The notes under the pieces were generated by a model. The model was not told the DNA's origin. It did not search any database and worked only from the letters and a program-made list of their open reading frames with translations. Shown piece after piece: positions 2,203 to 59,445 of a stretch of 64,000 nt of DNA. How positions within the stretch are numbered: the stretch's first letter is position 1; each line of letters opens with the position of its first letter. The DNA comes from Branchinecta lynchi (Eukaryota; Arthropoda; Branchiopoda; Anostraca; Branchinectidae), in contig JAKZAP010000011.1 of assembly GCA_023053575.1 (NCBI GenBank), positions 4,216,001 through 4,280,000 of the forward strand. The letters run 5' to 3'. The position numbers and the translations under genes are program-made.

Positions 2203-3476
2203 ACAAGACCAAAGATTTCAATGGGATCCCAAAATTTAACATCTGATCCAGACAATTGCGTCTTGTAGATATCCGCTCTTGGCCAGACTCCTTGAACATT
2301 TTTACTATTAAAACTTAGAAACAGATTAAGGCCAATGGCTCATCTGAGAAAACCAAGTTCAGATATGGATTCAACATGTGTTGTGTCATATATATCTACT
2401 TTAACAAGACCAAAAGGTTTCGATGGGATCCCAAAATTTTAATATTTGCTCCCGACAATACGGTCCTGTAGATATTCGGTCTTCAACAGACTTCTTAAAC
2501 ATTTTTACAATTAGAATTTACAAACAGGTTAAGGCCAATGGTAATAATCGGAGAAGACCAAGTTCGTGTTTGACAGTGCAAACCGGATTCGCCTGCTGAA
2601 TTTCGACAAGTTCAGATATATTCAATCCGTTTTGCGCTGTCAAATATTAATATACGGATTCAGCATATGGTCTAGCCTATAGCCTACGTCGTATCTCCTT
2701 CCTTCCTTACTCCTGCCCAACATCCGGTTTCGGTCGGATTCCGAACAAACTACTTGTCTGACACAAAACTATAGCTCAAAAACGAATTCAGCATGTCTCC
2801 TTACCCCAAAATCCAACCTCTATCAACTTCAGATTAAACGTTTACTTTTAACAAATTTTCCGGTTTCAGACAGATTCCAAGCGATCTATACGTCCGGTGA
2901 TAAAATTATTGTCATACGCGAATTCAGCATGTCTTCTTACTCGCAAATCGAACATCTTATCAAATTTAAATACAAATTTTATTTTTCACAAATTCTCCGG
3001 TTTTGGCCGGATTCCGACCGAACTAATTGTCCGGTGAGAAAATAAGTATCATATTTGGACTCAGAACGTTTCCTTGCCCCTAAATCGAACCTTCAACCAA
3101 CTTAATACTAAACTTTTACTTTTCACAAATTTTCCGGTTTTCGCCAGATTCCGGGTGAACTATTTGTCCAGCGAGAAAATAAATTTCATATTCGAATTCA
3201 GCATGTCTCCTTACCCCTAATTAAACTATCTCACTAGCTTTCAACAAATATTTTGTTCGCCCCTTAATTTGAAACCCCTCCCCCACCCTCAAATATAGGG
3301 CTACAGAGCCGATCTCCGAGCTTGACACAAAAGATCCTCCCACCAAGTTTCATCAAAATATCTCAATCCCCTCGAGAGTTATCGTGCGAACAGACGGACA
3401 GACAGACAGACGGACAACTTTTGGATGTCATAGGTAGCCTATCCCTCCACTTACATTTTGGGATCCCAAAAATTGA
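2203..3476 (+). repeat. Composite repeat with 137-bp internal units (copy 1)
   Basis: The head is an AAGACCAAAG..TGGGATCCCAAAA segment, present twice (about 2203 and 2403). A body of diverged units with core CCGGATTCCG..CTAATTGTCCGG follows. The tail reads CACCAAGTTTCATCAAAATA, then GAGAGTTATCGTG, then a GACGGACAGAC run, then ATTTTGGGATCCCAAAAA. Both ends carry the palindrome TGGGATCCCA. I see no coding capacity. Confidence 0.8.
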
Positions 3477-3829
3477 TCGAAACAGCTCAACTGTAAATCC
3501 AACCAACACCCTCAAACTAGAGCAATAACTATACAAAAGGCTACTCTTTGTTGCTGAATTACGGTACGCATTTTAGACAAATTCTTGAGCGAAGCAATTC
3601 GCACCTGTTTATACGTCGATGGTGGGCGTACCATCGCGAAAATGCCAATCCAAGTATAAAAGAGCCCTAATACTTCACCGCTTGTCAACAATGAAACCCT
3701 AGATGTGGTGTATAAACGGTGGACCACCCAGTTACTAGACCACAAAAGGCCCCTATCATTCAATCTCAACCGTACTCAGCCTTTTATGCGAGTAATTTCG
3801 ATCCAAATACGACAGTGACGGGAAATTAT

Positions 3830-4206
3830 AGTTGCGTTTTTGCAGATACCATGGTATCTGATACCACGGCCTAAAGTCGTTTTTGCAGCTATCGTGGTAT
3901 CTGATATTCAGATACCACGGTCCGACCGTGGTAACTGATCGTGGTATCTGAAAAAGTCATCTCACTTTCATTATTTTTTGGCAAATTGGTGGAAAAGAAT
4001 TTTGGCACTTTTAGTGATGTGACTGATTCTGACTTCGATTCTGACTTCGATTTTGACTGATTCTGACTTCGAAAAGCGCAATTTCGGCAATTGTCGTTTT
4101 TACAGAGCAACCGTATAACAGATACAACGATAATTGCAAAAACGACTAATTGCAGATCCAGTTACCGTTGTAACAGATACACCATGTTATCTGCAAAAAC
4201 GCAACT
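3830..4206. mobile_element. MITE with AGTTGCGTTTTTGCAGATA ends (copy 1)
   Basis: The 377-bp segment has inverted ends AGTTGCGTTTTTGCAGATA. Inside are many short inverted motifs based on GATACCACGG and CCGTGGTAACTG, which can fold into several hairpins. The unique middle (GTGATGTGACTGATTCTGAC to AAAAGCGCAATTTCGG) is shared with copies at 4825-5231 and 22168-23127. No transposase is present. No clear target duplication was assigned. Confidence 0.8.
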
Positions 4207-4824
4207 TAAATCTTAGTCCGTCCGTCATTCCGCTGTTAGGAAGATAACTATCCAAGGGGATGAGATATGTTATACAAGCTTACTTGGCCGTCTGGGCCAG
4301 ACCTATCCAAGTAAAGGTCAAGTTCCTAGATCGGCCATTAGCTATCAAAATGTCAATGACGTTTGTCTGTTTTGTTGGTCTGACCGTCAGTCCCTCTTCC
4401 GCCTTCTAGCACTATAACTCTTTAAGGAGTTGAGAAGATAGAGGCTGACAAATTTAAGGGTTGGCTGGGGGCTAGAAATTAAGGCGTCAAGTAAGACCGG
4501 AGAGAAGAAAGAAAATATGGCTCAACTCCAGTGCCCAACTACACATTCAAGAAAAAGGTATTTACTCATTGTTTCTTATTTCACTATGAATTTGAACTTT
4601 AACGCTGTCAATAACTGACGATTTTGTAATACTTATGACTGATCAATTGGTCAGCATAGATGTTGTTTACAAGAACAATGCTATTTTTAATTCTAATGAA
4701 ATATGCATGGTGGATAAATCGAACTTGAATAATCTATAAGAAGTTACATAAAAAGTAGACACAGTGATCCTGCTTCAACCTCCAGGCCATGAGCGCTGGC
4801 TCCGTCAAAGGGTGATGAAACCTT
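4207..4824. other. Repeat end plus unassigned sequence
   Basis: At about 4213-4345, AGTCCGTCCGTC followed by GTTAGGAAGATAACT and GGGGATGAGATATG is the reverse-oriented tail type of the GACGGAC-ended repeats. The rest, to 4824, shows nothing recognisable. Confidence 0.4.
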
Positions 4825-5231
4825 AGTTGCGTTTTTGCAGATACCATGGTATCTGATACCACGGTCTAAAATCGTTGTCGCAGTTACTGTGGTATCTGAT
4901 ACCGTGGCCAAAAGGCGCTTTTGCAGTTATCGTGGTATCTGACCAGTTACCGTGGTAACTGATCGTGGTATGTGAAAGAAGTATTTTCACTTCATCATCA
5001 TTAACATTAGAGCCTAGGATTTTTTCAAATTGGTGGGAAAGAAGTGTGACACTTAGTGATGTGACTGGATATCAGTTTTTCTTTTGGGATGACTCCGAAA
5101 AGCGCAATTTCGGCAGTTGTCGTTTTTGCAAAGCAGCAGTAGTATCAGATACCACGGTAACTGCAAAAACGACAAAATGCAGATCCAGTTACCGTGGTAT
5201 CAGATACCATGGTATCTGCAAAAACACAGCT
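4825..5231. mobile_element. MITE with AGTTGCGTTTTTGCAGATA ends (copy 2)
   Basis: This 407-bp copy has the same ends, the same GATACCATGGTATC palindromes near both termini, and the same middle as copy 1, only about 620 bp away. The short open frames it contains are by-products of the repeat. Confidence 0.82.
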
Positions 5232-6708: not shown

Positions 6709-6784
6709 CCGTGGTCCACAACCGGTTGATTTCTCGGAACATCATAGTCCAGCTGGTCAGTTCCGCCTGCTCCACCGTGGGAAC
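6709..6784 (-). CDS. BCAR1: CAS-family docking protein, exon 4 (YDVP motif)
   Basis: The 76-nt exon has a very good acceptor (GACCTCTCTTGTCTTCCAG before 6784) and donor (CACGG|GTAAGTGA at 6709/6708). Joined to exon 3 in phase 1 it reads GSHGGAGGTDQLDYDVPRNQ followed by PVVDHG. YDVP is the signature YxxP tyrosine-phosphorylation site of the CAS substrate domain, the docking site for Crk SH2. The exon leaves phase 2 (GG|). Vertebrate CAS proteins have many more YxxP repeats. Only this one is visible here. Confidence 0.87.
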
Positions 6785-9709: not shown

Positions 9710-9800
9710 TTACTTTGGTTGTTGCCGTAGTGTTATTTCTTTTGTCATTTTTCTACTATATATATATATCTGTATTTGAAAGCGATTAAGCCATATATAG

Positions 9801-11214
9801 AACAAGATCAAAGGTTTCGATGGAATCCCAAAAATTCAACATCTGATCCAGACAACTGGGTCTTGTCTTAGCCAGATCTAGTCTTCGCCAGACTCCTTGA
9901 ACATTTTTACAATTAAAATTCAGAAACAGATTAAGGCCAAATAGCTAATCACCTGAGAAAACCAAGTTCAGATCTGGATTCAGCATGTGCGTTTACCCCT
10001 ATAAGTCATATCTGTTTTGACGAAAACTTCCTGCCACTTCTGCCAATTTCCCGGTTCCGGCCGAACTCCAGAACTACTTGTCCGGCGAAAAAAGAAAGCT
10101 CAAAGACGAAATCAGGGTATCTTCTTTCCCCAGTAATGAACATCTAATCAACTTCAAATAGAAATTTAGCTTATAACAAATTTTCCGATTCCAGCCGGAT
10201 TCCGGTCGAACTATATGTCCGGGTAAAATACGATTGTCATACAGGGACTCAGCATCTCTTCTTACCCCTAAATCGCTTATCTAGTCAACTAGAAATAAAA
10301 CTTTGACTTCCAACAGTTTTCCGGTTTTGGCCGGATTCCGGATGAACTACATGTCCGGGTAGAAACTTGTTTTCACATAAGTGTTCAGCATGTCTTCTTG
10401 CCCTAAATCGAACATCTAATCAACTCCAAATAAAACTTTTAATTTTGACAAACTTTCCGGTTTGGGCCGGATTCCGGTCGAAATACTTGTCCGTCGAGAA
10501 AATAGTTTTCACCATCGTCTTCAGCATGCCTTCCTACCTCTAAATCGAACGTTTAATCAACTTCAAATAAAACTTTTACTTTCAACAAACTTTCCGGTTT
10601 GGGCCGGATTCCGGGCGAAATACTTGTCCGTCGAGAAAATAGTTTTCACCATCGTCTTCAGCATGTCTTCCTACCCCTAAATCGAACATCTAATCAATTT
10701 CAAATAAAACTTTTACTTTCAACAAACTTTCCGGTTTGGGCCGGATTCCGGGCGAAATACTTGTCCGTCGAGAAAATAATTTTCACCATAGTCTTCAGCA
10801 TGTCTTCCTACCCCTAAATCGAACATCTAATCAACTTCAAATAAAACTTTTACTTTCAACAAACTTTCTGGTTTTGGCCGGATTCCGGGCGAACTACTTG
10901 TCCGATGACAAAATGGTTTTCACCATCGTGTTGAGCAAGTCTTCTTACCCCATAATCGACTATCACAATAGCGGTTTCAAAATATTTTGTTTGTCCCTTA
11001 ATTTGAATCCCCTCCCCCACCCCTAAATGTAGAGCTACAAAGCCCATCTACGAACTTGACTGGTCCGACGACCCAACGAACCCTCTCACCAAGCTTCATC
11101 AAAATATCTCATTCCCTTCGAGAGTTATCGTGCTTACAGACGGACGGACGGACAGACGGACAACTTTTGCGATGTCATAGGTATCCCTCCACTTACGTTT
11201 TGGGATCCCAAAAA
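9801..11214 (+). repeat. Composite repeat with 137-bp internal units (copy 2)
   Basis: This copy has the most regular units. The segment beginning TTTGGGCCGGATTCCG restarts at intervals of exactly 137 bp (about 10462, 10599, 10736). The head is an AAGATCAAAGGTTTCGATGG-type segment. The tail is CACCAAGCTTCATCAAAATA, GAGAGTTATCGTGC, a GACGGACGGAC run and GTTTTGGGATCCCAAAAA. Neighbouring units are nearly identical here and more diverged towards the head. Confidence 0.88.
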
Positions 11215-22167: not shown

Positions 22168-23127
22168 AGTTGCATTTTTGCAGATACCATGGTATCTGTT
22201 ACCACGGTAACTGGATTTCCTGCAGAAAAAATATCGACTGGTAAACCCAGCGGGAGTTATTGAGAAGCGTATTAGTGATTTCAATAGAGTAATTATTCGT
22301 AAGTACGGTGTTCCAGATGTTTCGGAGAAATTACTAATGCTACACAGGAAGCTGTTGGGTTCAGCCTACTCTCGGTTTTCACCACACCACCCCCTTACTC
22401 CCCTGTTTATGTGCTAGTGTTTGTTTTGTATAGTTATCTTAGTAAGTAAGTAAGTAATTTATTTATGACCCGCCATTTCGGAAAGGTGTTTAAAGGTGTT
22501 TAGTGTTTTCTTCCTTTCTTTTCTTTATTGTACTCCACTTGTTTTTCCTCTGGAACTTGAGGGTAAGAAATAAATTATTATTATTATTATTTCTCTACTG
22601 AATGTCAGGAGTCATTCCATCTTCGGTCATTTCTGTTTGTTCCGAGTTCGTAGTTATCGAAGTATGTTTTTTCCTTTCCGTTGTTTCTTTTTTCTTGTTT
22701 TTTACTCCGTCTTTTCTGGGCCTCGCCCAGTTTTGTTCAGTGATGGGTTATAAATAAAATGATGATGATGATCTGCAAATAGTATACCAAACGTGGTATC
22801 TGATATACGGTTGCTCTGTAAAACAACAATTGCCGAAATTGCGCTTTTCGAAGTCATCCCAAAAGAAAAACTGATATCCAGTTACATCACTAAGTGCTAA
22901 ACTACTTTCTCACCAATTTGAAAAATTTGATGAAAGTGCGATCACTTTTCATGTACCACGATCAGTTACAACGGTCGGATCGTGGTATCTGGATATCAGA
23001 TACCACGACGACTGGCCAGATACAACGATAACTGCAAAACGCCTTTTGACCGCGGTATCACATACCACGATAACTGCGAAAACAACTTTAGACCGTGGTA
23101 TCAGATACCATGGTATCTGCAAAAAAT
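22168..23127. mobile_element. MITE with AGTTGCGTTTTTGCAGATA ends (copy 3), interrupted
   Basis: It is in reverse orientation relative to copies 1 and 2. The left piece is 22168-22216 and the right piece 22773-23127. In the intact copies AACTGGAT runs straight into CTGCA. Here 556 bp lie between them. The right terminus is only about 13 bp from the 5' splice site of CAS intron 2 (23140). Confidence 0.82.
22217..22772 (+). pseudogene. LINE 3' fragment inserted in a MITE
   Basis: The first 60 or so codons read YRLVNPAGVIEKRISDFNRV, then IIRKYGVPDVSEKLLMLHRK, to a stop near 22412, like the end of a retrotransposon ORF. Then come a TAAG-type repeat, an ATT repeat (about 22575) and a final GAT repeat. 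Two microsatellite tails suggest two stacked 3' ends. I infer the class from the tails and the clean insertion point. Confidence 0.55.
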
Positions 23128-23140
23128 CAAGTAATCTTAC

Positions 23141-23356
23141 CTTGCGACTTTTGACATTGCCGTACATATCCGCCATGATGGATCTCTGGGGCCTGTACTG
23201 GGATGAACTTGAACTCGTTTCGCTGCTAGAGCTGCCGCCAGAGCTGTTCCAGGCCCTTCCTGAAGCTAGGCTGCTAATGGAGTTTGAAGAAGGGGACGGT
23301 TTTCCCTGGTAGAACCCAACGGGAAGGACTTTCAAACGATTTGCAGGACATAGGCC
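23141..23356 (-). CDS. BCAR1: CAS-family docking protein, exon 2 (SH3 end and Ser-rich linker)
   Basis: The exon is 216 nt (72 codons), phase 0 at both ends. The acceptor is TTGGTTTGTTTCTAG before 23356 and the donor AAG|GTAAGA at 23141/23140. It begins GLCPANRLKVLPVG, the last SH3 strand. In vertebrate CAS proteins the equivalent is GIVPGNRLKIL, and joined to exon 1 the residues fall exactly into register (LRGKE+GLCPANR against LHGRQGIVPGNR). A proline/serine-rich linker follows (GKPSPSSNSISSLASG, then a run of Ser), ending ADMYGNVKSRK. A MITE begins about 13 bp into the following intron. Confidence 0.93.
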
Positions 23357-23560: not shown

Positions 23561-23689
23561 AATCGAAATATAGCTCTAGCGAAATATCTGTTTACACTGT
23601 AATATACTCTTTAGATATTACAGTTACACTTACCTTGGCTACCAATCTAACAAGAGCCCTATGAACTCAAAAAGGTCTTCAAATACACT

Positions 23690-30104: not shown

Positions 30105-31290
30105 CTGAATTGTTTTTACTCTGCTAAGGGTTTTTTAGTGGAGTGTTCCTTGGAACAGTCCACTATTGCGAGCGCTGTAGCAGCTTTCGGTTTTCGGTTT
30201 CCGGTTTTCACCGTATTTTGTGGAGCTCATAACTCGTGAACCAGTGCAAGTATTTCAAACTAGTAGTTCAAACTTGGTATACAAGTGGGTATTGGGGTCT
30301 AGTTGTGCCTTTTGGGGGTCCCACCCCCCACTCCCACCCGGTTCAGGGGCAAATGGGCCCAGATTGCCCAGTGAATAATGCTCATAACTTGACCAGAACT
30401 GGGCACAGGACGATGAAGTTTGTTGTACTTGTAGATCTTAGGGCTGGGAAATTGCTTTGAAAGTTGCACCTCCCCCACCCACCACGTTCATGGGCAACTG
30501 GGCCCAAATTGCACAGGAGTAAAGTTTGTTACCCTGACAGGAATCAACAGGTATCAAGTTCACACTTGGTATACTAGTGGGGTATTGGGGTCTAGTTGTG
30601 GCTTCTGAGGTCCCCCCCCCCCTCAACCCGGTTCAGGGGCAAACAGGCCCAGATTGCCCAGTGAATAATGTCCATAACTTGACCAGAACTGGACATAGGA
30701 AGATGAAATTCCTTGTACATGTAGATCCTACGGCTGGGAAATTCCTTTGAAAGTTGTACCTCCCCGACACACCACGTCCATGGGCAACTGGGCCCAGATT
30801 ATCCAGGAGTAAAGTTCGTTACCCATGACAGGAATCAACAGGTATCAAGTTGAAACTTGGTAGGATTGTGAGCATTGCAGGGGTCTCTTTTTACTTTTTG
30901 CGGATCCCAAATCCCACCCCACACTTGGTTTAGCGGCAATTGGGCCCAGATGACACATTTTTAATATTTTTAACTTGACAACAACTGGAAATAAGGCAAT
31001 GAAATTCTTTTGTGCTTGTGGATCATAGGGGTTGGAGAGAGCTGAACCACCCCCACCCTCTCCGTTCATCGGCAAGTGGGCCCAAACTGCCCATTAAAAA
31101 AGTGTTTGACCCGTGACTAGAATCAAACTCTAAGCTGGTATACTTGAGGAAAAAGAGGTGTAAATACGCATCTGATGGGTCCCCCCCCCCCCCCTGCCAT
31201 TCATGGGCAGCTGGGCCCAGATTTTCGTTGAGTTAAGTTCGTCTTTGACAGGTTTCAAGTCCAACTCTTCTATATTTGGGGAGAAATATC
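30105..31290 (-). repeat. Tandem repeat, about 295-bp unit, related to the 39.6-41.3 kb array
   Basis: The first 150 bp (TTTTTAGTGGAGTGTTCCTT to AGCTCATAACTCGTGAA) are the reverse of the non-exon part of the unit at 39600-41304. They continue into about four diverged units with paired blocks GGGCAAATGGGCCCAGATTG and GGGCAACTGGGCCCA. This copy lacks the SH3 exon tail. Confidence 0.78.
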
Positions 31291-34335: not shown

Positions 34336-35341
34336 CGGAATACCTATGACTTCGTAAAAGTTGTCCGTATGTCCGTCCGTCTGTGAGAATAATAACTTTC
34401 GAAGGGAATGAGATGTTTTGACGAAGCTTAGTAAGAGGATTCTTTGGGTGACGGGACAGGTCGAGTTCATAGATGTGCTCTGTAGCCCTACATTTAGGGG
34501 TGGGGGAGGGGTTTCAAAGTAAGGTACACACAAAATATTTTAACATCTAATGTGATAGTCGATTTAGGGGTAAGAAGACATGATGAGCACGAATACGAAA
34601 ATCATTTTCTCGCCGGACAAGTAGTTCGCCCGGAATCCGGCCAAAACCGGAAAATTTGTGAAATGTAAAAGTTTTATCTGAAGTTGATTAGAGGTTCGAT
34701 CTTGAGGTAAGAAGACATGCTGGATCCGTATATGACACTCATTTTCTATCCGAAGATATAATTCGCCAGGAATCTGGCTGGAACAGAAAAATCTGTTCGA
34801 AGAAGAGGTTCGATTAAGTGGTAAAGAGACATGCTGAATTCGCACATGAAAATCATTTTCTCACTGGACAAATAGTTCACCCGGAATCCGAACAAAATCG
34901 GAAAATTTGTTAAAAGTAAAAGTTTTATCTGAAGTTGACTAGAGGTTCAATTTAAGGGTAAGAAGGCAAGCTGAATCCGTATATGACAACCATTTTGTAC
35001 CCGGACATATAGTCCGCCAGGAATTCGGCAGAAACCGGAAATCTTTTTAAAACTTAACGTTTTATCTGAAATTGATTAGAGGTTCCATATAGGGGCAAGG
35101 AGATGCGCTGAATTCGTTTTCGAACTTTACCTTTTGTCGGAGAAGTAGTTCGGCCGGAATTCCGCCGAAACAAGAAATTTGGCAAAAGTTATGCAGGAAG
35201 TTCTGATTTTATTTTAATCTGTTTAAATTTGATATTAAAAACGTTCAAGGAGTCTGGAGAAGATCAGATATCTACAAGACCCAATTGTCTGGATCAAATA
35301 TTACATTTTTGGGGGTTCCGTCGAAACCTTTGGTCTTAATG
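34336..35341 (-). repeat. Composite repeat with 137-bp units (copy 4)
   Basis: The reverse-oriented tail (GTCCGTCCGTCTGTGAGAA, CGAAGGGAATGAGATG) is followed by about five diverged units and the head ending in GAAACCTTTGGTCTTAATG. The BamHI-like palindrome at the head is mutated. Confidence 0.8.
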
Positions 35342-36367: not shown

Positions 36368-37985
36368 ATAAAAAAATTAATAAACAATATTTTATTAAAA
36401 AAAAAAAATTTATTCCCGCGTAGCTTCTTTTTCATTTGTTCTTGCTTTGGACTGAACCAAACAAGTGGCTACGTCTCCACCTCCAACTCAGTGACGTTAC
36501 TACAAAATTTACTTAAAAGTTTACCCTACTTTAACGTCACCTACACTTTCATCTTAAACCTATTATCTTTGTAATTTATCAACTCTAAATCTAACTTCTC
36601 CTTCCAAAATTTTAATTTTTATATTAAATATTCTCATCAAAACTCACTCTCTCATTCAAAAACCCTTTCTCCATAAATTCTAAACCTACAAACTAAATCT
36701 ACCCTTTTTTCATTTTTTCTAACAATATTAAATTTTATCTACCATATTTTACAACCATTAAATATATTTTCTTCTTTACTATTAATCTACTCATATTTTT
36801 AAAACCTGGCAAAAACCCAAAATATATACAATTTTTTCCACTTCGAATCAAGCAGTCAAATTTTATAGGTTCGATCAGGAATAAACAACCACCAAAAAAC
36901 AAAACTTTTAAAATCACGCACTACCTGTTTCAAGATGTTCTACCGTCCTTAGAGAATCTCTCTTACAGTGGCAAAAAGTTACTTCAATGAAAAAACAACA
37001 AAAAACCTTAAAATTTATTCCTTCACTCACCTACAAAAAAAAACAAAAACCAACAACCAAACTCCCGATTTAAAATCTCCTTCCTTTACAACAAAGGAAA
37101 ACTAGCAAGGAGATTCTAAATATCACTTCAGTTCCTTAAAAAACATCAGGTTGAAACTTTGACTGCCCAAAACAAAAACAACAAAACCAACCAAAAATTT
37201 GAATTTTTATTATATAATTTAAAAAAAATACCGGTTACCCACACTTCAATCATAAAATTTTTAACGCATCATTCAACCATCCCACATCCACGGATCTATT
37301 CCATAACTCACTCTGCGAATTTATTTCAACCATACTGTGGATCCAACTGTAGAACCTCGGGAAATTTATACTTTTACCTTTCTTCCTCATTTTCCACACG
37401 TGGACACAGACTGCAGTCATCAAGAAGACCATAGCCTGTTCTTTCTCTTTTGCAGCACCAATTTCAAAACACAATTTCAGAGCCATTTTCTTTTCTTCTA
37501 AACTTTCAATTTTTACACCCTCCCTTTTAAAAATTTCGAAAATATTTTTAAAAATTTCACCATTAAACTGGCACTCCAGGAACTCATGCTTCATACCGTC
37601 AACTACCTCAATCTTGCACAGCTGACATAGCGGATTTTCGCTACTCAAGAAACGGCTTACGCGGTTTCTGTACGGTAAAATCCCATGAATTACCATAAAC
37701 ATGGTTTCTTTTTCTTGGGGGCGGCTTTTTGATGCATTCCAATTTTCAAATGATTTTTCATAATTCACAAATGGTTCATTCCGTTTTGCTTGGAAATCAA
37801 TCTCGGTCTCACTTTTACCTTTTAAAAATGAATCCACCAATTTTTTCCTTTCCTTGTTATCAATATCATCCTTAAAAATTCCCGAATTCTTGAGGTCCCG
37901 CAGTGTCAAAGCTGCTTTTTGGATTTCCTTTGGTACCGTTTTAAGTTTTTCCTTTACCCGTTCATCATCGTCTTCATTTATTACA
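36329..37985 (-). pseudogene. 5'-truncated LINE with poly(A) tail and target duplication
   Basis: On the minus strand, coding sequence (about 37985 down to 37250, stop) includes the zinc-knuckle-like PLCQLCKIEVVDGMKHEFLE, typical of the end of LINE ORF2. It is followed by about 890 bp of 3' UTR almost free of C and a tail of 35 A (36329-36363 as T). GCATCTGGC flanks both ends (36320-36328 and 37986-37994). A poly(A) tail, 5' truncation and a 9-bp or longer duplication fit target-primed insertion. No intact RT or endonuclease domain is present. Confidence 0.78.
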
Positions 37986-38213
37986 GCATCTGGCTTTTGT
38001 GCTTTTGACCTACACTGCTCATGGCACTGTTGCACCACCGTCTACATGGTTTATCTTTTTCGGTTGCAAATGTCAAATGAACAAATCAGATCACGATTAA
38101 AAACAATCCCAGAATTCCATTCAAAAGATTTCTGTTTGCCTTCCTTATATTGTAGAACAGGACCAATTTTAGTTCACTAGTTAGTTATCTTCTCTAAGTC
38201 GGAGAATCAAACG

Positions 38214-39130: not shown

Positions 39131-39599
39131 GAATTGAACCAGGCCTTCAGTCATGGGTGACAAAAACGCGACTAGTATTTTGACGAACAGGTTAGAGAGA
39201 GTGTGTTGACTAAACTTTAGCTAATTATCTACGGGTCGTGACGTCACACGAAAAGTCTATCCTTTCCATTTACTAACGGAAGTGATTGTCCCTAGAACGG
39301 TTTATAAGTTAAACGCGTCTGGCGCCTGGCTGGCCGCTCGGCTCTACATAACTTCAGATACAAATATATATAATATTAGTTTAATCGAATTTTCCTATTT
39401 CTTTCATGAAGTCATGAAAACGTCCGGGCTGTAGACAATCGGCTAAAGTTTAGTTAATAGTAGAGAGAGAAGACACGGTTTCGGCAAATACACTAGTCTG
39501 TTTTGAACGTAACGAAGACAGACTCCGCAACAAACACAATTAGAAAGAGAGCACTGTAATATTTTAAGACGAACCGTTCCAGAAGTGACCCCGATCACT

Positions 39600-41304
39600 T
39601 GCGGCAAGTAATAAATCGAGCAAGCCCTTGATAAGAAATGATTGGGCTAGTAAGAAACCTTGCTGTCCCTCCAAGCCCCCCCCCCCAAAAAAAAAGGCAC
39701 AACTAGAACCCGACACCCACAAGTGTAACAAGTTTGAAATTGATACTTACATCGTTCACGAGTTATGAGCTCCACAAAATATGGTGAAAACCGACAATCG
39801 AAGATGAAAGTTACTACAGCGATCGCAAAAGTGGATTATTTCAAGGAACACTCCGAAAAAACGATCGGGCTAGTAACAAACCTTGCTGAGGGAACTCACC
39901 TCTTTACCCCGAAGGGAGCAAAGCCAACATCCCTGTCCCTCCAAGCCCCACTCCCCCCCCCAAAAAAGGCACAATTAGAACCCGACACCCACCAGTGTAA
40001 CAAGTTTGAAATTGACACTTACATCGTTCACGAGTTATGAGCTCCACAAAATATGGTGAAAACCGAAAACTGAAAGCTGAAAGCTACTACAGCGATCGCA
40101 AAAGTGGATTGTTCCAAGGAACACTCCACTAAAAGCGATCGGGCTAGGAACAAACCTTGCTGAGGGAACTCACCTCTTTACCCCGAAGGGGGCAAAGCCA
40201 CCATCCCTGTCCCTCCAAGCCCCCCCCCCCCCCCCCAAAAAAAAAGCACAACTAGAACCCAATACCCACAAGTGTAACAAGTTTGAACTTGATACTTACA
40301 TCGTTCACGAGTTATGAGCTCCACAAAATATGGTGAAAACCGAAAACTGAAAGCTGAAAGCTACTACAGCGATCGCAAAAGTGGATTATTTCAAGGAATA
40401 CTCCACTAAAAACGATCGGCTAGTAACAAACCTTGCTGAGGAAACTCACCTCTTTACCCCGAAGCGAGCAAAGCCACCATCCCTGTCCCTCCAAGCCCCC
40501 CCTCTCCCAAAAAAAGGCACAATTAGAACCCAATACCCACAAGTGTAACAAGTTTGAAGTTGATACTAACATCGTTCACGAGTTATGAGCTCCACAAAAT
40601 ACAGTGAAAACCGACAATCGAAGATGAAAGCTACTACAGCGATCGCAAAAGTGGATTGTTCCAAGGAACACTCCACTAAAAACGATCGGGTTAGTAACAA
40701 ACCTTGCTGAGGAAACTCACCTCTTTACCCCGAAGAGAGCCAAGCCACCATCCCTATCCCTCCAAGCCCCCCCCCCAAAAAAAAAAAAGCACAACTAGAA
40801 CCCAATACCCACAAGTGTAACAAGTTTGAACTTGACACTTACTTCACGAGTTATGAGCTCCACAAAATATGGTGAAAACCGAAAACTGAAAGCTGAAAGC
40901 TACTACAGCGATCGCAAAAGTGGATTATTTCAAGGAATACTCCACTAAAAACGATCGGCTAGTAACAAACCTTGCTGAGGGAACTCACCTCTTTACCCCG
41001 AAGGGAGCAAAGCCACCATCCCTGTCCCTCCAAGCCCCCCCCCCAAAAAAAAAAGCACAACTAGAACCGAATACCCACAAGTGTAACAAGTTTGAACTTG
41101 ATACTTACTTCACGAGTTATGAGCTCCACAAAATATGGTAAAAACCGAAAATCGAAAGCTGAAAGCTACTAGAGCGATCGCAAAAGTGGATTATTTCAAG
41201 GAACACTCCACTAAAAACGATCGGGCTAGTAACAAACCTTGCTGAGGGAACTCACCTCTTTACCCCGAAGGGAGCAAAGCCACCATCCCTGTCCCTCCAA
41301 GCCC
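39600..41304 (-). repeat. Tandem array carrying SH3 exon tails and splice donors
   Basis: The unit is about 267-276 bp. Read on the minus strand, each unit has the last 48 bases of CAS exon 1 (GLEGQGWWLCSLRGKE), the GTGAGT donor, about 35 bp of intron start, then a dispersed repeat (TAGTGGAGTGTTCCTTG to TGGAGCTCATAACTCGTG) and a T/G run. Donor G positions are 41255 (the gene's own), then 40988, 40720, 40449, 40173 and 39899. A remnant sits at 39650-39680. The copy at 40988 matches the real exon tail base for base. The dispersed part alone occurs at 30105-30250. Confidence 0.92.
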
Positions 41305-41414
41305 GCGGGATTTTCATCCACGACGACAAGAAGATCCCCTTTCCGAAAGGCCAACTCATCTGGGGCATCGGCGATGTTGTCGTAAAGTGCACGAGCTGTT
41401 GCAGAAGTCATTTC
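41256..41414 (-). CDS. BCAR1: CAS-family docking protein, exon 1 of the coding region (SH3 domain)
   Basis: The exon follows an acceptor (CTCCGTTGTTTGCAG) and begins GAA-ATG, with ATG at 41409-41411. Its 52 codons read MTSATARALYDNIADAPDEL, then AFRKGDLLVVVDENP, then AGLEGQGWWLCSLRGKE. This is a CAS SH3: vertebrate members have ALYDNV-E-P-ELSFRKGD and GLDGWWLCSLHGRQG. The ALYD, the acidic RT loop, FRKGD and the WW pair are all present. Two extra residues (QG) precede WW. The donor GTGAGT at 41255 gives phase 0 and joins exon 2 in perfect register. A GTAAAG eight bases earlier would break the frame. The exon tail is duplicated five times downstream. Confidence 0.95.
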
Positions 41415-42460: not shown

Positions 42461-43410
42461 ACAGTGTAGACTTGCAATATCTCTCCCGGTATTTCCTTTG
42501 ACATTTACATGTTATTATTATTCCTAGTGGTTAGTATTGGAAGGCAAAGAAAGAGAAAATAAAAGGAAGTGAGGGAGACGATGATAAATGTATGTTGTAC
42601 TGGTTTAAATTAAGAAAAGTTATGCACTTCCGCACAGGACATAGTTGTGCCCTTCGTGGGAGCGTGATGTAGCCGTAATATCGACCTAACCTGATCCTAA
42701 GCAGTAAAGCCTCTGTCACTTCTCATCAAATTCTGTATTTGGGACCTGGCTTCCTGGCTATCCAATCACTGGGGCCTTTATCGCAGCGTCGCATAAGACG
42801 GGGGGGGGGCCTAAATCTAAAAAAAAAATTGATTTCGTTTGCACTAAATGAAATAATTTCACCACGCGCGTAGAAACAATGCTTTATCGGCAAGGTGACA
42901 GTGCTAGATACGGAACATGACTTCAAGCTGGAAAAAGTAAAATCGGGCATCTGCACCTCCGTATGTGCAACATTCAATACAGTAGTTTTCTACAGACGAT
43001 TCAGGAGTGAGAATGAAATGAGAGATTATTTTTTTCGAGAATCTTTCACTAACTAGACTTGTCGTTTTAGGAACATACTTGGCATAAGAACTAGCAAGAC
43101 GTAAGTAAAAAATGCAATAGCACACCCGATTTGGCAAATAAGGACCGTACAAGGCGGCTACAGATTTAGTACCATGACTCTTAATTTGGAATCTACTTGG
43201 AACCTAATATTAAATGAATGCCAGCCAGTCTGCACGCTTAATCACCACGAAACATCCCAATTCCAAGTATGGCAAAAACCTGGTCGTGCCAAGTACAGCC
43301 ATCCTAAATTAAAAAAAATCCCCAGAGTTGACTTGGGATAATGTTTGTCGCTTGTCACGCCATTCTTTTTTTGCAATGGCTCGTAATCATGCTGGAACTA
43401 GCTAAATAAA
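42461..43410. other. No recognisable feature
   Basis: Nothing matched a repeat family or a coding pattern. Whether a 5' UTR exon of the CAS gene lies here cannot be told from sequence. Confidence 0.4.
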
Positions 43411-44721
43411 ACAAGACCAAAGGTTTCGATGGGATCCCAAAAATTCAATATTTGATTCAGGCAATTGGGTCTTGTGTTCGCCAAATCCAGTCTTCGACAA
43501 ACTTTTTGAACATTTTTACTATTGAAATTCAGAAACAGATTAAGGCCAAATAGCTAATAATCTAAGAAAAACAAGTTCAGACATGGATTCAGCATGCGTG
43601 TTTATCCCTATAAGTCATATCTGTTTTGACGAAAACTTCCTGCCACTTCTATCAATTTCACGGTTTCGGCCGAATTCCGGAACTACTTGTCCGGCGAAAA
43701 AAGAGAGCTCAAAAACGAACTTTCCCAATACTATACAATCTCTAATCAACTTCAAATAAAATATTTACTTATAACAAATTTTCCGGCTCCAGCCGGATTC
43801 CAGTCGAACTATATGTCCCGGTAAAAAATGATTGTCATACACGGATTCAGCATCTCTTCTTACTCCTAAATCACATATTTAATCAAATACAAATAAAACT
43901 TTAACTTTTAACAATTTTCCGGTTTTGGCAAGATTCCGGGCGAACTACTTGTCCGGGACAGAAAACTGTTTTCACCAAAGTGTTCAGCATGTTTTCTTAC
44001 CCCTAAATCGAACCTCTAATCAACTCCAAATAAATTTTACTTGTAACAAACTTTCCATTTTTTGCCGGATTTCGGGCGTACTACTTGTCCGGCGAGAAAA
44101 TGATTTTCACCATTGTCTTCAGCATGTCTTCCTACCCCTAAATCGAACATCTAATTTACTTCAAATAAAACTTTTACTTTTAACAGACTTTCCGGTTTTG
44201 GCCGGATTCCGGGATAACTACTTATTCAGGCGAAAGAATGATTTTCACCTTCGTGTTCAGCATGTCTTCTTAGCCCTAAATCGAACATCTAATCAACTTC
44301 AAATACAACTTTTACTTTTAACAAACTTTCCGGTTTTGGCCGGATTCCGGGCGAACTACTTGTCCGATGACAAAATGGTTTTCATCATGGTGTTCAGCAT
44401 GTATTCTTACCCCATAATCGACTATTATATTCATTTGCCCCTTAATTTGAACCCCCTCCCCCAACCCTAAATGTAGGGCTACAGAGCCCATCCACGAACT
44501 CGTCCTTACTCTTGACCCAGAGAAGCCTCACACCAAGTTTCATCAAATTATCTCATTCCCTTCGAGAGTTACAGTGCACGAACTCGTCGTTACTCTTGAC
44601 CCAAAGAAGCCTCACACCAAGTTTCATCAAAATATCTCATTCCCTTCGAGAGTTACAGTGCGCACAGACGGACAACTTTTGCGATGGCATAGGTCTCCAC
44701 TTACGTTTTGGGATCCCAAAA
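43411..44721 (+). repeat. Composite repeat with 137-bp units (copy 5)
   Basis: Head ACAAGACCAAAGGTTTCGAT plus GGGATCCCAAAA, about six units, tail duplicated once (CACCAAGTTTCATCAAA at about 44532 and 44617), then GTTTTGGGATCCCAAAAAA. The 181-codon open frame at 43925-44470 is repeat translation. Confidence 0.87.
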
Positions 44722-46401: not shown

Positions 46402-47472
46402 AACAAGACCAAAGGTTTCGATGGGATCCCAAACATTTTATATTTACAGACAATCGGGTGTTGTAGCGGTCCAATGGTAATCATCGGAGAAGACGAAGTT
46501 CAAATATGGATTCAGGATGTGAGTTTACCCCTATAGCCTGCGTCATGTCTACTTTGATGAAAGTTCCTGCCTTACTTCAGCCAAATTTCCGTTTTCAGTC
46601 GGATTCCGGGCGAACTACTTGTCTTGCAAGAAATTGAAGTTCAAAAACAGATTCAGCGTATCCATTCCATCCATATCTCCATAATCAACTTCACATAAAA
46701 CTTCAACTTTTAACAAATTTTCCGATTTTAGCAGGATTCGTGGCGAAATGTGTCCAGGTATAAAATGAGTGTCATACAGGAATTCAGCATGCCTTCTTAC
46801 CCGAAAATCGAACACTTAATGAGATTCATATAAAACTCTTACTTTTAACAGATTTCCCGGTTATGGCCGGATTCCGGGCGATCTACTTGTCCGGCGACAA
46901 AATAATTTTCATATTAGGATTCAACATGTTTCACTATCCGTAAATCGAACCTCTAATCAACTTCAGATTAATCTTTTATTTTTGACAAACTTTCCGGTTT
47001 TGGCGGGATTCCGGCCGATCTACTTGTCCGACGAGAAAATCATTTTCATATTCGAATTCAGCATGTTCCCTTACCCCTAAATCGGATATCTAATCAACTT
47101 CAGATAAAACTTTTACTTTTAAAAAAATTTCCGGTTTTAGCCGGATTCCGGGTGAACTAGTCTTCCGCCGAGAAAATGGTTTTCATATTCGTGAGCATAC
47201 CGTCTTACCCCGTAACCAACTATCTCATCAGCTTTTAAAAAATATTTTTTTTCCGCCCCTTAATCTGAAACCTCTCCCCCTCCCCTAAATATGCAGCTAT
47301 CGGGCTCATCTACGAACTCGACCTTTCCCTCGACTCGAAGAGTCCTCACACCAAGTTTCATTAAAATATCTCATTCCCTTCGAGAGTTATCGTACTGACA
47401 GACGGACGGACAGACGGACAACTTTCGCGATGTCATAGGTATCCCTCCACTTACGTTTTGGGATCCCAAAAA
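46402..47472 (+). repeat. Composite repeat with 137-bp units (copy 6)
   Basis: Head AACAAGACCAAAGGTTTCG at 46402, about five units, tail CACCAAGTTTCATTAAAATA, GAGAGTTATCGTACTG, GACGGACGGACAGACGG and GTTTTGGGATCCCAAAAA. Confidence 0.87.
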
Positions 47473-58984: not shown

Positions 58985-59445
58985 CAATAAATATTCCTTC
59001 ATCGCAAGCTGACTGCGAATCATATTTGATAGCGCAAAATGGATACTTCAGCTAAATTTTATTAATGTACTGGTCTACTGGAGTTCCGTACTTGGAGGAT
59101 AAATATTCCTTCAGCCCAAGCTGACTGCGAATCATATTTGATAGTGCAACACGGATACGTCAGCTGAATTTTATTAGTTTACTGGGCTACTGGAGTTCCG
59201 TACTTGGAGGATAAATATTCCTTCAGCCCAAGCTGACTGCGAATCATATTTGATAGTGCAACACGGATACGTCAGCTGAATTTTATTAGTTTACTGGGCT
59301 ACTGGAGTTCCGTACTTGGACTATAAATAATTGATCAGCCCAAGCTGAGTGTGAATCATATTTGATAGTGCAAAACGGATACGTCAGCTGATAATGAATT
59401 TAATAAAATTCCGCTGACGTATCCGTTTTGCACTATCAAATATCA
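58985..59445. repeat. Foldback arm amplified in tandem (about 114-bp unit)
   Basis: Three and a half units of ATAAATATTCCTTCAGCCCA, AGCTGACTGCGAATCATATT, ACGTCAGCTGAATTTTATTA and GGGCTACTGGAGTTCCGTAC. The last unit runs into the same arm in reverse (59392-59445). Confidence 0.85.

Follow-up and report, generated by a model that had tools for sequence, protein, structure and literature searches.

A tandem array of an SH3 exon tail and its splice donor in an intron of a CAS-family gene of Branchinecta lynchi

The CAS gene and the array in its intron

The window, by which we mean the whole stretch of 64,000 nucleotides of Branchinecta lynchi DNA that was analysed, carries on its minus strand part of a gene of the CAS family (p130Cas/BCAR1/NEDD9-like), together with a tandem array built from the end of its first coding exon (Table 1). 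This exon of 159 nt consists of three nucleotides before the ATG and 52 codons of an SH3 domain. It starts at 41414 behind the acceptor TTTGCAG/GAAATG and ends at the donor GAG/GTGAGT at 41255 (slashes mark the splice sites), from which 17.9 kb of intron lead to the next exon at 23356. The 52 codons and the exon at 23356 together form an SH3 domain (Pfam SH3_9, PF14604, E 1e-10). In the PDB, the structures that best match the two exons are BCAR1/p130Cas constructs (best E 2.6e-24), and 59 of the 77 candidates in a protein search reached E <= 0.001, several of them insect proteins named BCAR1 or NEDD9-like. The gene thus has the N-terminal SH3 domain of the CAS adaptor family, continuing across the intron. 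The CAS identity proposed in an earlier note on this DNA is borne out by the Pfam, structure and protein matches alike. The same note spoke of exon 1; the exon is indeed the first to code, but a good acceptor precedes it at 41414, and it is therefore probably not the first exon of the gene.

The intron itself appears to be old. Where the exon ends, 14 of 29 aligned CAS-like proteins continue as RGRQV, which looks like read-through of an unspliced donor, and this resemblance suggests that the position of the intron is apparently of long standing in arthropods; one of these 14 proteins is named (from a bee) and most are unnamed. A protein of Artemia franciscana (P0007) aligns with 41% of the query at 80% identity and has in common with it a two-residue insertion before WW; judged by this one protein, the DNA would most likely be that of a branchiopod crustacean, and at such an identity probably not that of Artemia. 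An origin of this insertion from the array was considered and rejected, since the Artemia protein carries a similar one, LEGQEWW. A search for the CAS substrate domain (repeated YxxP) and the C-terminal helical domain yielded one further candidate exon with splice-like borders, at 6709-6784 on the minus strand, in which 76 nt between CTTCCAG and GTAAGT encode LDYDVPRNQP in one frame. That frame needs one preceding base, whereas the exon ending at 23140 is of phase 0, so that another exon would have to intervene. Within the CAS intron lies a LINE-like reading frame (37250-38041, minus strand) with a zf-RVT match of 25.1 bits, under the curated cut-off of 27.5, and repeated GGTATCTGATACCACGG-type motifs occur just downstream of the second CAS exon, at 22994-23110, and at 3819-5209.

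Table 1. Positions within the window of the CAS exons, the units of the array and the sequences related to them
Feature	Positions	Strand	Remarks
First coding exon, CAS-family (p130Cas/BCAR1/NEDD9-like) gene	41256..41414	-	acceptor, donor, translation, Pfam SH3, PDB BCAR1, CAS-like proteins
Real donor GTGAGT	41250..41255	-	alone of the six donors leaves an open frame when joined to 23356
In-frame TAG met when the real donor is bypassed	41226..41228	-	nine codons past the donor
Unit c0, 267 bp: exon tail, real donor, own intron start, repeat piece, T-run, G-run	41036..41302	-	
Dispersed-repeat piece in unit c0	41050..41217	-	80.8% to 30132-30313; equivalent piece in each full unit
Unit c1, 268 bp, donor 40988	40768..41035	-	exon tail equal to the real one
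Unit c2, 271 bp, donor 40720	40497..40767	-	exon tail with CAG to TAG and two other changes
Unit c3, 276 bp, donor 40449	40221..40496	-	
Unit c4, 274 bp, donor 40173	39947..40220	-	
Unit c5, 270 bp, donor 39899	39677..39946	-	
Truncated seventh unit: 14 nt of exon tail (39663-39676), then intron resembling the intron start	39636..39676	-	BLAST to unit starts
Longer dispersed-repeat copy, ~292-bp internal repeats	30132..31258	+	28-nt hairpin sequence at 30137-30164
Next CAS exon, 216 nt, SH3 end GLCPANRLKVL...	23141..23356	-	acceptor TTTCTAG, donor GTAAGA at 23140

TRF places the array on the minus strand at 39663-41304, with a period of 271, 6.1 copies, 91% matches and a score of 2694, which is far beyond chance. 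When unit borders are set by cutting at GCTTGGAGGGA[C/T]AG, the array falls into six full units plus a truncated remnant, and each full unit has the same order: exon tail (47 aligned bases), GTGAGT, about 32 bp of intron start, about 170 bp of a dispersed repeat, and a T-run with a G-run. The earlier note described this arrangement well in most respects. Its six donor coordinates agree exactly with the positions of GAGGTGAGT (41255, 40988, 40720, 40449, 40173 and 39899), its spacing of 267-276 bp corresponds to the unit lengths, its exact match between the nearest copy and the real exon tail extends over all 47 aligned exon bases, and the five extra donors are, as claimed, the same in sequence as the real one. 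Its count of five additional copies is correct for full units, but there is also a truncated copy, in which the exon tail directly adjoins CAAGGTTTCTTACTAG and 47 unit bases (a length counted by reading) are absent between two CAG words. This copy has lost the remainder of the exon together with the donor, and continues as CAAGGTTTCTTACTAGCCCAATCATTTC before ordinary intron resumes. Hence the donor is kept in five of the six extra copies, and not in all of them as had been stated.

Other tandem arrays are present in the window. One of 112 bp lies at 58987-59391 (3.6 copies, 93% matches), and five with a period of 137 bp lie at 2783-3220, 10138-10959, 34804-35117, 43741-44421 and 46682-47191. 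Between the stretches 43403-44421 and 9794-10822 the likeness is 85% and takes in some flank, so that the 137-bp arrays are probably a dispersed repeat with an internal tandem.

Exchange between units and the origin of the array

Outside the T- and G-runs, any two units are 90-97% identical. Of the 120 pairs formed by 16 informative sites, 59 are incompatible by the four-gamete test. Several of the sites lie next to each other and have the same pattern; with the set reduced to 8 distinct patterns, 15 of 28 pairs conflict. When the copy at 30132 is taken as outgroup, a 4-bp deletion is common to c0 and c1, a base change to c1 and c3, another to c2 and c4, and two further changes to c4 and c5. 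Such crossing, mosaic patterns suggest that the units have probably exchanged sequence, and repeated mutation could be the source of part of the conflicts; a permutation test for spatial clustering as a sign of exchange between units was not significant (p 0.11). The previous description of the array as recent or homogenised is a fair one, in that the copies look homogenised by exchange. The same data bear on whether the array exists as assembled. Tandem repeats with G- and T-runs assemble poorly, but the full units diverge by 3-10% outside the runs and in conflicting patterns, which duplicated reads would not create, and we regard an assembly artefact as highly improbable.

Sequence conservation among the units gives no evidence of selection on the donor. 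None of the nine bases around it varies among the six units, but 28% of the unit's 9-base windows are equally free of variation, so that an intact donor in six full units is within chance expectation. Variable columns number 5 of 47 in the exon tail against 30 of 163 in the repeat piece (Fisher p 0.27), and adding the own-intron start to the exon tail changes this little (Fisher p 0.20). Purifying selection on the copied donors was rejected on these grounds. The in-frame changes in the copied exon tails, which comprise one stop, three missense and two synonymous changes, look as expected for sequence without coding constraint.

We consider it likely that the array is a donor-bearing intronic tandem repeat, similar to a VNTR, which originated in an error of repair or replication, grew by unequal exchange and is mostly silent for the gene. 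The order of events that we infer begins with an error that would have duplicated about 85-90 bp spanning the exon-intron border. A piece of some 170 bp of the dispersed repeat would have been captured in this duplication as filler, with its joints at the T-run and the G-run, template switching being the likeliest route by which the filler was copied from the repeat. The growth to six full units, and their continued similarity, would then be due to unequal exchange.

Several features of the joints and of the repeat fit this sequence of events. Throughout the array, exon tail and never ordinary intron stands behind the repeat piece, and intron sequence resumes only beyond the last, truncated unit. 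The array pieces are 80-84% alike to a stretch at about 30130-30318, the copy that the earlier note had seen alone and placed at 30105. The ~292-bp internal repeats of this other copy start inside the shared stretch and extend about 900 bp beyond the G-run joint. At one joint TTT is common to the intron flank and the repeat, and at the other GGG is common to the repeat and the exon; overlaps of three bases easily arise by chance and alone would be weak evidence. Taken together, the exon tail behind the repeat piece, the internal repeats that pass the G-run and the short overlaps at the joints fit a tandem duplication with filler.

The main alternative is an insertion, in which a transposable element would have entered the intron and duplicated some 85-90 bp of target, and amplification of the locus would have followed. 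At 30132 there is indeed a dispersed repeat that has a hairpin close to the joint, and a long target duplication would likewise yield the order exon, intron, repeat, exon, intron. In that case the element would start at TTTTTAGTGG, stop at the G-run and carry target duplications. However, the internal repeats at 30132 pass the G-run joint by some 900 bp, so that the piece looks internal on that side, and a target duplication of about 85-90 bp is of unusual length for a transposable element. We therefore judge an insertion of this kind to be unlikely. The earlier note likewise held that a transposon inserted just downstream of the exon had probably seeded the amplification. What stands of this is that a piece of the repeat is present in each full unit; against it are the exon tail that always follows the piece in place of ordinary intron, and the continuation of the 30132 copy beyond the G-run. 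On balance, filler of a duplication seems a more plausible account of the piece than an insertion amplified later. The hairpin in the 30132 copy makes a rolling-circle (Helitron/Helentron) origin of the repeat possible. Within the window that copy is the only one found outside the array, and a scan of viral contigs with a 25-base word of the repeat gave 0 matches.

Splice signals in the array

Splice sites were scored with matrices for vertebrate splice sites, and the scores are indicative only. By the donor matrix, the six GAGGTGAGT sites, the real donor among them, tie for best of the 1,081 GTs of the 17.9 kb intron, and the next-best score belongs to AAGGTAAGT at 23633. Joined to the next exon, only the real donor leaves the frame open, and all five decoys lead to a stop after 61 residues. 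The exons that they define would measure 426-1515 nt, as opposed to 159 nt for the real one. Use of a decoy reads into the in-frame TAG behind the real donor and would thus give an unproductive mRNA. We picture the five decoys as able, in principle, to bind U1 equally well, with the real donor being used because it alone would make an exon of normal size with the upstream acceptor (exon definition); decoys, if used, would cross the in-frame stop and feed mRNA decay. The array is, on these predictions of donor use, probably mostly silent for the gene and of small effect on the protein.

Alternatively, the copies might be regulatory poison donors, such that some transcripts take a decoy, stop at the TAG and are degraded, and the length of the array tunes the output of CAS. 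Such a role would agree with five extra donors that equal the real one and are among the best of the intron's 1,081 GTs, and with the stop that every decoy yields. Nevertheless, neither the exon tails nor the donors carry a signal of selection above the unit average, and the decoy exons are of 426-1515 nt against 159 nt, which makes this role improbable. More specifically, the decoys might act as a dosage dial by capturing U1 and setting the share of transcripts that end at the TAG, with the number of units, altered by unequal exchange, tuning the amount of the CAS adaptor; this we hold to be quite unlikely. If it were true, the amount of an adhesion-signalling adaptor would follow unit number. 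Protection by U1 from early polyadenylation was also considered as a role that the array might have; the sense strand of the intron contains 19 AATAAA and 14 ATTAAA signals, of which the first past the array is at 39385.

It has also been proposed, in the earlier note, that the copies might act as 39-nt mini-exons that would lengthen a loop of the SH3 domain. Exons of 33 or 39 nt, both multiples of three, would be in frame after the real exon, a T-run lies upstream, and the 33-nt version is open in five of five copies. However, a G-run separates the T-run from the AG, the 39-nt version of c2 has a stop, and c5 has a change of W to C. Moreover, the acceptors that such mini-exons need look unusable: with -6.6 to -11.2 bits they take ranks of 53-84% in the set of 1,089 AGs of the intron, whereas the gene's own two acceptors score +5.8 and +8.9 bits (vertebrate matrix, indicative only). 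Eleven of the 1,089 AGs score at least as high as the acceptor of the next exon, itself counted; none is in the array, where the best reaches +1.5. Poor acceptors and a stop in one of five 39-nt versions thus make mini-exons unlikely, and we think them very improbable as an explanation of the copies. Exons with TTTCAG acceptors in the repeat piece were also considered, and the four that were formed all contain stops in the frame fed by the real donor.

Another suggestion comes from the AG that abuts GTGAGT in each copy, with a short pyrimidine stretch upstream. Such sites might serve as a ratchet by which the 17.9 kb intron is removed in steps, and they recall the recursive splice sites of Drosophila, in which AG stands next to GT in a long intron (PMC8605326). 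In the CAS array, however, the acceptor part is weak. By the vertebrate matrix the abutting AGs score -5.4 to -6.9 bits, near the middle of the intron's AGs, so that no strong acceptor is joined directly to a donor. A better score is reached by the AG that lies two bases before (-1.3 to -2.8 bits, rank 16-25%), but the intron would hardly become shorter by use of five sites that all lie within 1.4 kb of the donor, and we give this idea scarcely any credence. Mini-exons and ratchet sites alike were rejected on acceptor scores from the vertebrate matrix.

Related repeats and significance

Repeats that contain splice donors have precedents. The minisatellite of IFI6 (6-16), reportedly a subject of Nucleic Acids Res in 1995, is said to offer multiple splice donor sites in units of 12 bp. 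Like the CAS array, it would be an array at an exon-intron border that provides several donors, but its units are reportedly short, whereas those of CAS are long and each decoy leads to a stop. Another parallel is human ABCA7, in which a 25-bp VNTR of intron 18 begins with the donor of exon 18, has 23.7 units in the reference and varies in length among people (PMC5954066). In cDNA, a cryptic donor one unit on is used, by which one unit is retained and the frame is shifted (PMC5954066). The two loci agree in having a tandem repeat beside an exon that includes the exon's donor. They differ in that the ABCA7 unit is 25 bp from its GT, whereas the CAS unit is 267-276 bp, contains a coding exon tail and a repeat piece, and is present six times in full. 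In the potato RdRp gene, an intron was gained through tandem duplication of an exon-intron border (PMC4974935). There too a border-spanning duplication copied splice signals, but on the acceptor side and with a new intron as the result (PMC4974935). The duplication in CAS concerns the donor side and is unlikely to have made a new exon or intron.

The units of the CAS array take in the donor of the exon beside them, and in this the array resembles the donor-bearing VNTRs, of which it would be a long-unit variant with coding sequence and filler in the unit. A literature search found no case of exactly such make-up, which is weak evidence of novelty, given that subscription papers fell mostly outside its scope and some terms went unmatched.

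The array places in a row six donors of the same sequence in nearly identical surroundings of 80 bp, of which one is real and five are decoys. Donor usage across it would therefore test position effects in a natural gene, setting exon definition against nearness to the acceptor. More generally, the array suggests that a repair accident and a captured piece of a repeat can give a conserved coding exon a row of neighbouring splice sites that compete on equal terms, while leaving the gene seemingly unbroken.
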